From Bdellovibrio bacteriovorus (GTDB lineage: Bacteria > Bdellovibrionota > Bdellovibrionia > Bdellovibrionales > Bdellovibrionaceae): 64,000 nt of DNA. Shown here piece after piece: positions 36,401 through 40,502 of the stretch (positions are counted from its first letter, which is position 1; each line of letters begins with the position of its first letter). A program made the translations under genes and the position numbers. The notes under the pieces were generated by a model, which was not told the DNA's origin, did no database searches, and saw nothing but the letters and a program-made list of their open reading frames with translations. The DNA lies in contig NZ_LUKE01000001.1 in NCBI RefSeq assembly GCF_001592735.1, positions 1,337,018 through 1,401,017 of the forward strand, read 5' to 3'.

Positions 36401-36657
36401 TAAAGGTGCCCTCACCAATCTCTTCCATGTCTCACCCGTCCAAAATTTAAACGGCCCGTTTCCCAGTCACTGGTCCTTGGACCGTGTTACTTGTGGAGTT
36501 ATTGTGTCTGCGATTAAGTCTTAAACATTAAAGCGATCTTTAAAATCATAATGAATATGACTAAGATCGCTTTAGTAATCCCTAATATGCGTCGATAACG
36601 TAATTAACTGTGTTTACGCATCGGACACCTCCGAGTCATTCGGACATAGGGTCCACC
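36401..36657. other. Gene-free structured region, candidate non-coding RNA
   Basis: The stretch from the atpE terminator to the next gene lacks a convincing ORF but is rich in inverted repeats. The pair TAAAGCGATCTT / AAGATCGCTTTA (36529-36540 and 36563-36574) is perfect over 12 bp, with an inner TCATA / TATGA stem. A further hairpin TCCGA / TCGGA lies inside GGAC / GTCC arms around 36622-36654. A small GGTCC-TT-GGACC stem lies near 36464-36475. A strong hairpin with a T run follows at 36658. The set could be a small RNA or an untranslated leader. No known family was recognised. Confidence 0.4.
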
Positions 36658-36695
36658 AAAAGCGAGATTGGCGAAGGCGAATCTCGCTTTTGCAT
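36658..36695. terminator. 12-bp terminator-like hairpin
   Basis: AAAAGCGAGATT / AATCTCGCTTTT (36658-36669 and 36680-36691) is a perfect 12-bp stem with a ten-base loop, A-rich on one side and T-rich on the other. It could terminate transcription in either direction and would end a transcript made from the preceding structured region. Confidence 0.8.
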
Positions 36696-36750
36696 TTCTG
36701 GGGCCCTGACTCAGGTTGACTTAGATAATTGCCCAAACTCTAATAATTTC

Positions 36751-37341
36751 ATGAACAGCTCATTTCATAAATACCTCGAGTTTTTGGAGTTCTATCTTCA
36801 GGGGATTCTTTCTGAGGGTTTGTTGATTCCTTTGCGAAATTTTTCTGCGCGTAGGTTGGATGACGTCGGAACGGATGCGGCCCTGTTTTTTCAGTTTCAG
36901 ATGGATGGCCGTTCGCCTCAAGATGCTTTGAAGGATCTAAAGATTAAAATGCCCCAGGCACTTAAGGAAGCGCTTGTGCTTGGTTTTGAAAAGTCCACGC
37001 TTGATTTAGTACTTGCGGACACCATTCAAATATTAAAATCTAAAAATTCTGAAGAAGAAACTGAATCGGCTCTTTCTGAAATTTTAAAAAAATATAAAAA
37101 AATCGATACGACTCTTATTTGTATTGGATGCGCGAAAGAGGAGATTTCAAAGATCTTTGCTCGGGCTGAAGCCGAAGGTGTTAAAGAGGTCATCATCCAG
37201 CAAAAAGGTGAGTTCATAGTTCAGAAATACTTAGGCCCTAAGCTCGTGACCGTCATCGAGGCGTCGATTCCCGGCGTTTATGAAAGCCTTAAGGAAGCTT
37301 TAAAAAACCGCAAAGACAGAATTCAAATCATTTTTCAATAG
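36751..37341 (+). CDS. Unrecognised protein of 196 residues
   Basis: Soluble-looking protein without signal peptide or membrane helix. The first half is helical (FHKYLEFLEFYLQGILSEGLLIP; KMPQALKEALVLGFEKSTLDLVLADTIQIL). The second half reads like an alpha/beta fold (TTLICIGCAKEEISKIFARAEAEGVKEVIIQQ, then LVTVIEASIPGVYESL) with a CIGC cysteine pair near residue 128. The ATG at 36751 is chosen because upstream in-frame codons run through the terminator hairpin; no good Shine-Dalgarno sequence is visible, so the start is uncertain. It lies directly before the MerR-type gene. No family assigned. Confidence 0.6.
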   Translation: MNSSFHKYLEFLEFYLQGILSEGLLIPLRNFSARRLDDVGTDAALFFQFQMDGRSPQDALKDLKIKMPQALKEALVLGFEKSTLDLVLADTIQILKSKNSEEETESALSEILKKYKKIDTTLICIGCAKEEISKIFARAEAEGVKEVIIQQKGEFIVQKYLGPKLVTVIEASIPGVYESLKEALKNRKDRIQIIFQ

Positions 37342-37349
37342 TATCCATA

Positions 37350-37380
37350 TTGACCTTGACCCAAGGGCAACCTCGATATT
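37350..37380 (+). promoter_or_regulatory. MerR-type promoter with 19-bp spacer
   Basis: TTGACC (37350-37355) and GATATT (37375-37380) are separated by 19 bases, the over-long spacer typical of MerR-controlled promoters. The spacer contains the near-dyad TTGACCCAAGGGCAA (37356-37370). It lies 15 bases before the ATG of the MerR-type gene, suggesting autoregulation. Confidence 0.7.
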
Positions 37381-37395
37381 GATTGCGAGGTAAGG

Positions 37396-38382
37396 ATGAA
37401 GAATTGGCTGACCATTGGACAATTTGCTCGTGAATCCGGATTTTCGCCGAAAGCCTTACGGCTTTATGAAAAGATGGGTTTGATTATTTCCCATGCCCGT
37501 GGGGACAATGACTATCGCTATTACGATCAATCGCAATTAGCAACTGCCGGACGAATCAAAGAGCTTAAAGACCTTGGTTTCACGTTAAATGAAGTAAAAG
37601 ATCTTTTAAAGGTGGATGAAGAGTTGAACTCTGAAAAGCTTCATTCCGCCCTATTAAAACGTCGCGATCTTATTTCGGAGCAAGCCGATGTTCTTCGTAA
37701 TCAAAAAAACCAAGTTGAAAAAATCCTCTCCTCTTTGAGCAAAAAAACACAGCCACTAGAGGCTGAACAAAGGAGAGCGATTATGAGTTTTTATGGAAAT
37801 ATTTCGATCTTGGTCACAGGAACTCAAGGCCTAGAAAAAACGGCTTCTTATATTCAGAAGCACTTTAAGAATAACGGCAAAGACATTCCCATTGTTCAAT
37901 GGAATAAGGCGCAAGCACTGCCGGTACAAAAACCATATATTCTGGTATGCCCTGAGGCGGTCTTAGGAGATTCATCTGTGGAAGAAATAAACGCCGACGT
38001 TATCGTGGTAAAAAATATAAGCGCTCACGATCAAAACCTTAAACAAAAGTACCTTCGTCTTTTTTTAGCTGCCGGTCCTCACGTGACTACGGTCATAAAT
38101 GCAGATGATCTTGCCTCTGTGGATTTAGCTGGGGATAACTCTATACGCTCAGGCAGGATATTTTATTTTTCTAAGAATAAGGCCCTACAAGAACAGATTT
38201 CAAAAATTGGTGGAGTCATTGGTCAAGGTGATGATGTTTATCTATTTGGATTTAATCTTCAGAAAAAAGAGATTGAATTTAAGTTGGATAAAATCTTGGC
38301 CTTAGAAGATGAAGTTTCCTATTTGTCCTCTTTAGGAGCAGTTCTCACTGCGGGTTTTTCCTATGAAACATTAAGACCTTAA
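37396..38382 (+). CDS. MerR-family regulator with Mur-ligase-like C-terminal domain
   Basis: 328 residues. Residues 1-75 are a MerR winged helix (LTIGQFARESGFSPKALRLYEKMGLI; RYYDQSQL), followed by a dimerisation coiled coil (about 80-118). From about 133 it resembles the central ATPase domain of Mur ligases: VTGTQGLEKTA at 140-150 where Mur enzymes have TGTNGKTT, DVIVVKNISAHDQN at 201-214 where they have a TNI-x-x-DH motif, and VINADD at 233-238 followed by GRIFYFSKN. The P-loop Gly-Lys-Thr is broken, so the domain probably senses rather than catalyses. This architecture is unusual. The similarity is by eye and needs a profile search. Confidence 0.8.
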   Translation: MKNWLTIGQFARESGFSPKALRLYEKMGLIISHARGDNDYRYYDQSQLATAGRIKELKDLGFTLNEVKDLLKVDEELNSEKLHSALLKRRDLISEQADVLRNQKNQVEKILSSLSKKTQPLEAEQRRAIMSFYGNISILVTGTQGLEKTASYIQKHFKNNGKDIPIVQWNKAQALPVQKPYILVCPEAVLGDSSVEEINADVIVVKNISAHDQNLKQKYLRLFLAAGPHVTTVINADDLASVDLAGDNSIRSGRIFYFSKNKALQEQISKIGGVIGQGDDVYLFGFNLQKKEIEFKLDKILALEDEVSYLSSLGAVLTAGFSYETLRP

Positions 38383-38502
38383 TATCAAGTGTCAGCCAAA
38401 TTTTGGCAAGGGCGCAGGACAGCGCCCTGTGCTACCGATTGCTTTCATTTAAGTCGGCCTTTTTCTTGCTGATTAGTACTGCGAACTGTCTTTTAAATTT
38501 TT

Positions 38503-38519
38503 GTCTCAATTTGAGACGA
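38503..38519. promoter_or_regulatory. Candidate operator GTCTCAATTTGAGAC
   Basis: A perfect 7+1+7 palindrome (38503-38517) ends just before the GAGGA ribosome-binding site of the acyltransferase gene. With loop length one it cannot be an RNA hairpin, so a DNA-binding site is more likely. It shares 15 of 16 bases with 7615-7630. Confidence 0.4.
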
Positions 38520-38528
38520 GGAATTTTT

Positions 38529-40502
38529 ATGAAAGCAAATCGCACGATGAATCTTTTAGTCGCAAGCACTTTGGCTTCAAGCTTGGTGCTGACATCAACA
38601 ACCGCATTTTCAGCCGAAAAATGTGCGACGATTTTTTTAGAAAAACAGGCGATTTTAGCTTTCAAACTAGGTGTACGTCAAACAGGTTTAGAAGGTCGCC
38701 CACTAGGTCTGCAAGTTGTTGAATCAAGATATAAAATTGTTGAAAACACTATCAACGCCGTTGCCACGGCGGTATTTGGAAAAACACTTAAGCTTGATGT
38801 TATCAACAAAGTTACTAAAAACTTTTTAGCCGACACCAGCAGCGATCCCTATTTTGTGCGCTTGGCGCGCGCCTTTGATTTACGTTTTAGCGCGGATGAG
38901 GCGGCATTAGTAAAAGGAATTCCGGCTCAAGGTGGTGGGATCATCGTATTAAATCACCCTCGCAATGGTTCAGATGGTATTGCCGTCGCCGCTGCCATTT
39001 CAAAACTACGTCCCGACACCAAAGTTGCCATGACACTATTCTTAGAAAATGTTCCGGGACTGAGTGATCACGCTATTTTCTTAAATCCTTATGGGGGCCG
39101 GGCGGCCCGCGATTACAACGCGCCAAGAATGAAAGAAATGGAAGAGCATATTCGTAATGGGGGACTTCTGGTGGTCTTTGCTTCGGGCGAAGTTAGCATG
39201 AAAGATCCAGGATCAGCGCAAAAACCGGTGGATCCAGAATGGAGATCCGGGGTTGCGCGCCTAGTACAAGCCGTTCCTGAAACCCAAGTTATCCCTGTCT
39301 ATGTCGGTGGCGAAGCTTCAAAACAGTTTTATGAAGTTCGAAAAAAAGGCTTAGGATTAAAAACAACGATTTTTCATGTCAGAGAACTAGCCAATAACGT
39401 AGGTCGTGAATTCCCACTTTCTATTTCTAACCCCGTTCAGGGTAAAGAACTTTTAGAAACTTTCGGAACTAACTCTAAAGATATGATGCAGTACTTGCGT
39501 GCGCGCACATATTTAATGAATGAACAAACAAGTTTGGTAAAAAAATCTGAGGCGGCTCCGCGAGTGATGGTCGATGTCGCGTTGTCAAAAGACCCTGCCC
39601 GTATTCACTCTGAAGTTATGCGCGACGGCGACTTGCTTGTCTCTGATGATAAAAAGGGTATCAACGTTTATGCTCTAGAAGGCAGCAAGATGTCGGATCT
39701 GGTGTGGCATGAGTTAGGCATTGCGCGCGAAAAATCCTTCCGTGTTGTGGGTGAGGGGTCCGGCAAAGAAATGGATATTGATGTGTATGACAGACACTAT
39801 ATTCACATCATCGCCATGGATACCGTGACCAATAAAATGTTAGGTGCGTATCGTGTGGGTCGCGTGGATAAGATCGTGGCGGAAAGAGGCCTAGAGGGTC
39901 TTTACACTTCAAACTATTTCAAACACCAAGCCTTGATTGAAAAACACGGTTCCCAAATGTTAGAGATGGGCCGAAGCTTTGTCGACTTTGAAGCCGGCGC
40001 CAAAGCTATTGTGGGATTAGATCGCTTATGGAGAGGTGTGACCTCTTACGTTTCAAAAAACCCGCATTATAGATATCTTATTGGGCCGGTTTCTATTTCC
40101 AATGCTTATTCCACAACAAGTAAATTGTTGATGTTAAAGTATCTAGAAAAATACATGGACCCAGAACTTTCGCAAGTTGTGAGCGGTAATACTCCGATTG
40201 AGTTTAAAAGTCAGTTCTCTAAAGAAATTGATATCGTTGCTAATAAAACTGCGGACTTAAGAGAATTAAATCGTTTGGTAGTAAACTTAGACGGCCAATC
40301 TATCCCGCCATTGCTTATCAGTTACAATAAGCTTGGTGCAAAATATATCGCCTTTGACCGTGACGTTCAATTCAACACGGTCGATGGACTTATTCTTGTG
40401 GATCTAGTTTCTAAGGGAGCTGCTGACGAGGCGTCGAAATTTTTCGGAGACCAGTGGCCTGCGTACTTGCAGTACCACGGGGCCTCTGTAGATCAGAATT
40501 AA
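38529..40502 (+). CDS. Two-domain acyltransferase, ornithine-lipid synthase-like (OlsF type)
   Basis: 657 residues starting at the ATG with GAGGA six bases upstream. A signal-like N-terminus (about 1-30, ending TTAFSAEKC) is followed by a PlsC-type acyltransferase domain with NHPRNGSDG (142-150) and FASGEVSM, the pattern of the COG3176 'hemolysin' group. The C-terminal part (about 370-560) is an OlsB/GNAT-like domain with DRHYIHIIAMDTVTNKMLGAYRVG and MGRSFVDFEAG (about 478). OlsF proteins combine these two activities to make ornithine lipids from ornithine and two acyl-ACPs. A signal peptide would be odd for an ACP-using enzyme; substrate is inferred. It overlaps the convergent gene by four bases. 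Confidence 0.75.
   Translation: MKANRTMNLLVASTLASSLVLTSTTAFSAEKCATIFLEKQAILAFKLGVRQTGLEGRPLGLQVVESRYKIVENTINAVATAVFGKTLKLDVINKVTKNFLADTSSDPYFVRLARAFDLRFSADEAALVKGIPAQGGGIIVLNHPRNGSDGIAVAAAISKLRPDTKVAMTLFLENVPGLSDHAIFLNPYGGRAARDYNAPRMKEMEEHIRNGGLLVVFASGEVSMKDPGSAQKPVDPEWRSGVARLVQAVPETQVIPVYVGGEASKQFYEVRKKGLGLKTTIFHVRELANNVGREFPLSISNPVQGKELLETFGTNSKDMMQYLRARTYLMNEQTSLVKKSEAAPRVMVDVALSKDPARIHSEVMRDGDLLVSDDKKGINVYALEGSKMSDLVWHELGIAREKSFRVVGEGSGKEMDIDVYDRHYIHIIAMDTVTNKMLGAYRVGRVDKIVAERGLEGLYTSNYFKHQALIEKHGSQMLEMGRSFVDFEAGAKAIVGLDRLWRGVTSYVSKNPHYRYLIGPVSISNAYSTTSKLLMLKYLEKYMDPELSQVVSGNTPIEFKSQFSKEIDIVANKTADLRELNRLVVNLDGQSIPPLLISYNKLGAKYIAFDRDVQFNTVDGLILVDLVSKGAADEASKFFGDQWPAYLQYHGASVDQN

Follow-up and report, generated by a model that had tools for sequence, protein, structure and literature searches.

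We describe here a gene of Bdellovibrio bacteriovorus, located in a 64,000-nucleotide stretch of contig NZ_LUKE01000001.1 (hereafter the window), which joins a transcriptional regulator of the MerR family to the central domain of the lineage's own MurD, the UDP-MurNAc-L-Ala:D-Glu ligase. Judged from its conserved promoter and from a conserved start site at the boundary between the two halves, the gene, which we call MerR-MurD, very likely encodes an autoregulated MerR protein together with a separately started, dead enzyme domain. We give an even chance to the further proposal that this is an autoregulated sensor and sponge whose MurD-like effector mimics the core enzyme and catches agents aimed at it. 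An earlier note on this DNA, made from the sequence alone, had recognized a MerR regulator fused to a degenerate Mur-ligase-like domain. New relative to that note are a probable autoregulatory promoter, an internal start site and paralogs that carry other enzyme domains; the promoter and internal start of MerR-MurD are previously unreported features.

Results

The N-terminal half of the protein matches Pfam MerR_1 above the cut-off (E value 1.2e-15) and shows the winged helix-turn-helix (HTH) and dimerising coiled coil of the MerR family, as seen in the Pfam scan and in the helices of an AlphaFold2 model. The C-terminal half by itself gave no convincing family match in Pfam and NCBIfam scans, and PF07739, the TipAS effector domain, was not matched in the Pfam scan, the effector having a Mur ligase fold instead. 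The missing family match is the point that speaks for a chance resemblance of motifs in an unrelated C-terminal domain, an explanation that we consider hardly conceivable because it is refuted by the same-genome match, the profile alignment, the structural model and the domain-profile search that follow. In a search of the same genome, residues 220-283 were 44% identical to the MurD of the dcw cluster (E 4e-12). Profile-profile alignment with hhalign of the C-terminal domains of 17 orthologs against 16 MurDs gave a probability of 99.6% and an E value of 4.9e-24 over 190 columns, and the match was colinear across the whole domain, from just before the P-loop to the end of domain 2. It spans MurD residues 109-319 of 463 only, and the three-domain architecture of the Mur ligases is absent. 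Because the domain profile, searched against the own genome, found MurD (E 3e-23) and matched no other Mur ligase, the parent is MurD specifically. The same genome also contains a second, divergent MurD gene (L081, C1:1414647-1415744, about 14 kilobases beyond the window, 454 amino acids), which lies near dnaA, is present in most members of the genus and is about 35% identical to the dcw MurD; the domain-profile search ruled it out as the parent of the MerR-fused domain.

Structure prediction, by which the earlier note had hoped to tell a Mur ligase domain from an unrelated fold, pointed in the same direction. The AlphaFold2 model has a mean predicted local distance difference test score (pLDDT) of 85, with about 90 for most of the MurD-like domain, and its best matches in the PDB are Mur ligases and the related cyanophycin synthetases. 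Residues 133-328 have the fold of domain 2, superimposing on MurC (9s8i) with a Z of 19.6 and a root-mean-square deviation of 2.9 over 174 residues, and on MurD (3lk7) with a Z of 18.9 and a deviation of 2.8 over 176 residues. These residues are the central domain of a Mur ligase, derived from the lineage's own MurD.

Only domain 2 of MurD is present in the fusion, the flanking ligase domains 1 and 3 being absent, and every confidently placed ATP or catalytic position of domain 2 has been lost. Nearly all of the 17 orthologs have other residues in place of MurD K124, H194, K208 and N297, which are the P-loop Lys, the catalytic His, the carbamylated Lys and the adenine-binding Asn of the GxHxxxN helix. 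The broken P-loop pointed out in the earlier note reads TGTQGLEKTA in the window protein, and the position of the ligase Lys is occupied by L in 14 of the 17 orthologs. As for the other motifs noticed there, VINADD reflects true homology to the Mur motif, and NADD is mostly kept, but the His of KNISAHDQ was misassigned: KNISAHD aligns with TNLAENH, so that its His, which is not conserved, falls one residue off the catalytic His. The placement of MurD Glu157 on Glu187 by hhalign was unstable, MAFFT giving Pro186, and no claim is made for this residue. From these replacements the domain is predicted to be catalytically dead. Over MurD 217-270, in turn, the MerR-fused domains are 45% identical on average and the window protein 48%, as compared with 12-25% in other segments; this stretch is kept at 83% among the MurD orthologs of the order, while two more distant MurDs reach only 19%. 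What has been retained is a stretch special to this lineage's MurD, not the active site.

At the boundary between the two halves the coding sequence contains AGGAGA-N6-ATG, which has the spacing of a Shine-Dalgarno sequence followed by a start codon. All 17 orthologs have Met130, which is one of the first residues of the MurD domain. A per-column codon test revealed that R126 is encoded by AGG in 15 of 16 sequences (usage 0.11; nominal p 4e-14), R127 by AGA in 14 of 15 (AGA being 21% of the Arg codons in these genes; nominal p 3e-9) and S131, the codon after Met130, by AGT in all 11 sequences with Ser at this position (nominal p 5e-9); since p-values of this test, here and below, treat related sequences as independent, only their ranking is to be trusted, and in that ranking these columns are the three lowest of 187. 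The same AGGAGA-N6-ATG is found in L110, an ortholog outside the codon-test alignment. A control with 12 other long MerR-type regulators of the genus, which offered fewer testable columns (68), showed nothing similar (lowest p 4e-3). Because the codon constraint forms a conserved Shine-Dalgarno sequence and start, a free MurD-like protein of 199 amino acids is probably made from the internal start.

Upstream of the gene, the spacer TTGACCCAAGGGCAACCTC holds an imperfect dyad (TTGaCCC-AA-GGG.CAA), and the -10-like box lies about 15 base pairs (bp) before the ATG. MerR regulators characteristically place their operator in an overlong spacer of 19-20 bp, and this trait is present here at the sequence level only, as a 19-bp spacer with a partial dyad. 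TTGACC-TTGACCCAAGGGCAACCTC-GATATT or a close form stands upstream of 12 of the 12 aligned orthologs, and in the window the promoter pattern matches at this site alone, with 0 matches expected by chance from shuffled sequence. In the regulon search, which was done by pattern matching only, the sole site in the own genome with fewer than 3 mismatches was the gene's own promoter; most of the sites with 3 mismatches precede other MerR genes, among them the paralogs L002 and L003 described below, and the remainder are at the level of a reversed-pattern control. Eleven other genomes have the own-promoter copy at 0, 1 or, in G006, G002 and G088, 3 mismatches, in most of them as the best match and usually as the only good one; a search of G075 at this stringency did not recover it. 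No operator match was found at mur or dcw genes in the pattern search of the genomes. Two 2-mismatch sites common to G012 and G022, located within a DEAD-box helicase gene or ahead of it, were not taken as regulon, nor was one repeated operator-like site inside a coding gene. The operator stays with the gene in two other genera having different neighbours. Because it travels with the gene in unrelated neighbourhoods, MerR-MurD appears to control only its own gene; control of neighbour genes was dropped, as the neighbours in other genera are unrelated.

A search with the regulator half alone identified sister regulators in which this half is joined to domains of other enzymes. In the DnaE type, MerR is fused to a degenerate fragment of the DNA polymerase III alpha subunit (L003, L025, L030 and others; TIGR00594 E 5e-19, PF17657 3e-13), a structural model of which matches PolIII alpha 2hpi with an E value of 3.6e-11. 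This type has spread to other families of the phylum. In 12 of the 12 DnaE-type genes tested, AGG encodes the invariant Arg that precedes the boundary Met by four residues, with a usage of 8% and a nominal p of 1.4e-13, the lowest of 182 columns. MerR-type operators lie just upstream of these genes, and the operator of the DnaE-type gene in the own genome is unique in that genome. The DnaB type carries the C-terminal domain of the DnaB helicase (PF03796 E 1e-32 and 1e-36), with an operator upstream and, ahead of a Met that forms the first residue of DnaB_C, AAGGA-like sites. The Lon type, with the substrate-binding domain of Lon, is present as a sole copy among 197 genomes, in the own genome; its regulator half is 41-47% identical to MerR-MurD proteins up to residue 139-162, and the Lon-like domain begins at 137, just after the internal Met. 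Each time the join between regulator and enzyme domain coincides with the internal start, as would be expected if the released piece were the functional unit. The coordinates of all of these features are listed in Table 1.

Table 1. Features of the MerR-MurD gene (window positions) and loci of the sister regulators
Feature	Location	Strand	Basis or remark
MerR-MurD regulator, long form, 328 amino acids	37396..38382	+	open reading frame, ATG to TAA
MerR winged HTH (residues 6-72) and coiled coil (helix 79-116)	37396..37770	+	Pfam MerR_1/MerR; solved MerR relatives CueR, BmrR, TipA-N; model helices
Degenerate MurD central domain (residues 133-328), ATP/catalytic residues lost	37792..38379	+	genome search, profile-profile alignment, AlphaFold2 model
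MerR-type promoter/operator: -35 TTGACC (37350-37355), 19-bp spacer TTGACCCAAGGGCAACCTC (37356-37374), -10-like GATATT (37375-37380)	37350..37380	+	conserved; function inferred from MerR promoter architecture
Internal Shine-Dalgarno AGGAGA (Arg126-Arg127 codons AGG AGA)	37771..37776	+	codon test
Predicted short form, free MurD-like domain from Met130, 199 amino acids	37783..38382	+	invariant Met130; translation predicted
DnaE type, own genome	L003:1498-3030 (C5:80836)		MerR and DnaE fragment
DnaE type, other loci	L025, L026, L027, L030, L031, L033, L034, L117, L119, L120, L229, L231
DnaB type	L233:605-1726, L234:572-1693, L238 (G113)	- (L233, L234)
Lon type, MerR and Lon substrate-binding domain	L002:1501-2583 (own genome C1:1016241)		PF02190 E 3e-24

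The 17 fusion domains form one clade with a support of 100/100, and the fusion therefore arose once. Full-length relatives are found in 19 of the 369 genomes of the phylum that were searched, all within the order, so that the fusion recognized in the earlier note represents a family of single origin that at least 19 genomes in the order share. When 85,000 species were scanned with exact peptide seeds, which is not exhaustive, full-length relatives turned up in Bdellovibrionales alone. Members of the core genus have the gene close to dnaA, with atpE on one side and a convergent phosphomannomutase gene on the other; in other genera it sits among unrelated genes, and G013 and G023 have the slot but lack the gene. 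MerR-MurD is a single gene with no constant partner, and fewer than half of the congeneric genomes have it. Such patchy presence among close relatives would suit an accessory protective trait. One relic of the C-terminal half (L023, G040:C16:96-770), at the start of a contig and with internal stops, is apparently a decaying copy. PADLOC matched only the MerR-like HTH of Mad1, together with generic ATPase matches. We found in the open-access literature no paper on a MerR protein with a Mur ligase domain and nothing for Bdellovibrio locus tags near this place; the merRNA of Bdellovibrio is unrelated to MerR.

Discussion

One-gene systems with a comparable layout have been described in other bacteria. 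TipA uses two start codons to produce TipAL and TipAS, a regulator and a dominant free drug-binding effector, and has been described as a minimal autoregulated system of multidrug resistance (PMC7762955). For AlbA, two translation products and the role of a self-regulatory sponge are reported, and the spacer of MerR promoters is given as 19 bp (PMC10189885). Reading from sequence alone, we find in MerR-MurD the layout of TipA (Streptomyces; SkgA class), with its MerR N-terminus and, as predictions, its self-activation and two in-frame starts, as well as the 19-bp promoter and the predicted long and short products of the kind made by the albicidin-binding AlbA of Klebsiella, which suggests that the gene follows the scheme of TipAL/TipAS and AlbA with an effector of a new kind. 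The effectors clearly differ: TipAS is a small helical drug-binding domain and the effector of AlbA is a duplicated TipAS-like fold not derived from an enzyme, whereas that of MerR-MurD is a dead MurD central domain unrelated to TipAS in sequence. With MurD itself the protein shares domain 2, in fold as in sequence, and the resemblance is closest to the lineage's own MurD, but the protein lacks domains 1 and 3, the ATP site and the catalytic residues, and it is fused to MerR. In BlaR1 and MecR1 the sensor domain derives from the very class of proteins that the antibiotic targets; unlike MerR-MurD, these are membrane receptor-proteases, do not belong to the MerR family and are not known to have an autoregulated sponge form. 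Recruitment of the Mur ligase fold into the transcription machinery is also seen in the PAP11/MurE-like proteins of the plastid RNA polymerase (8r6s and 8xzv, both among the structural matches), although this is a whole MurE-like subunit and not a DNA-binding regulator.

We propose that a dimer of the long form would sit on the long-spacer promoter of its own gene and that, when an agent binds this MurD surface, the long form would activate that promoter. Induction would yield the long form and the free MurD-like domain from Met130, and the free domain would soak up the agent and spare the real MurD. The agent would most likely be an inhibitor or hijacker of MurD, such as a natural product or a phage or rival protein, and not a substrate of MurD. 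We favour such a target mimic over a metabolite sensor because the substrate sites are gone, because the surface that has been kept is peculiar to this MurD, and because the same frame has been reused with DnaE, DnaB and Lon. The sole property common to DnaE, DnaB and Lon is that they are core machines open to attack by phages or antibiotics. It is possible, although we put this forward only tentatively, that the phylum has a whole class of autoregulated MerR target mimics, in which MurD, DnaE, DnaB and the N-terminal part of Lon serve as sensor and as decoy releasable through a conserved internal start, and that this class forms an inducible layer of immunity or resistance against phage proteins, toxins and antibiotics.

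Binding of a MurD partner protein is a serious rival to this proposal. The MurD-like domain might compete with MurD, join it or bind one of its partners, coupling expression or wall synthesis to the growth state, and the short form would then be a modulator of MurD and not a sponge. That the best-kept segment is the lineage-special surface at 217-270 is a pattern fitting a partner-binding face; many close relatives, however, keep MurD without the gene, and this reading would not account for the use of the same frame with DnaE, DnaB and Lon domains; on balance we regard control through a partner as unlikely. Plain negative autoregulation by a full-length repressor only, with the constraint on AGG-AGA-N6-ATG arising from an RNA element or from a hinge in the protein, would agree with a promoter layout that is common to all MerR promoters and with a short product known so far as a prediction. 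It seems improbable to us, since the constraint falls on AGG, on AGA and on the codon after the ATG, at Shine-Dalgarno spacing, and recurs in the DnaE and DnaB types.

The earlier note had suggested that the protein senses UDP-MurNAc-type wall precursors or recycled or prey-derived muropeptides. In a wider form, a transcription factor that senses wall precursors, D-Glu, a nucleotide or recycled muropeptides and adjusts wall genes would be in keeping with the MurD ancestry, with the binding of such ligands by the Mur fold in the enzyme, and with the mostly kept NADD. In Mur ligases, however, it is mainly domain 1 that binds UDP-MurNAc and domain 3 that binds the amino acid, as MurD structures have revealed, and both of these domains are absent here, as are the P-loop Lys, the His, the carbamylated Lys and the Asn. 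No mur gene lies near an operator match, a gene absent from more than half of the congeneric genomes is ill-suited to core wall homeostasis, and the DnaE, DnaB and Lon paralogs are unrelated to wall precursors. We therefore depart from the earlier note on this point and consider such a sensor quite improbable; the domain may have a new muropeptide-type site.

Some observations weigh against the target-mimic proposal itself. The architecture is well backed by the sequence; the function and ligand of MerR-MurD are inferred, as are production of the short form and activation upon binding. Among the sister regulators, one DnaE-type protein (L232) has no internal Met, the Lon type retains Met130 behind an internal Shine-Dalgarno sequence that is only weak, and two of the three DnaB-type members keep Walker A, so that the fused domain is not dead in every case. 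The regulon search may also have missed target sites elsewhere in the genome that are weak or diverged, and the codon test counts through its ranking.

If the target-mimic proposal is true, these genes would reveal agents directed against the MurD, DnaE, DnaB and Lon of predatory bacteria, with the fused domain naming the target, and the promoter and regulator would provide a ready reporter with which to fish for the agent. Enzyme-derived decoys would then join the one-gene resistance of the TipA and AlbA style. The prediction of an internal start is directly testable.

Neighbouring genes

The gene downstream of MerR-MurD (window 38403-40502, forward strand, probable start near 38529) encodes an acyltransferase domain and a GNAT-type Acetyltransf_5 domain, and is not beside the MerR gene in the relatives examined. 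An open reading frame of up to 243 amino acids (window 36610-37341, forward strand) with no Pfam or NCBIfam family is situated between atpE and the MerR gene, and its slot is occupied in relatives by cupin or other genes.
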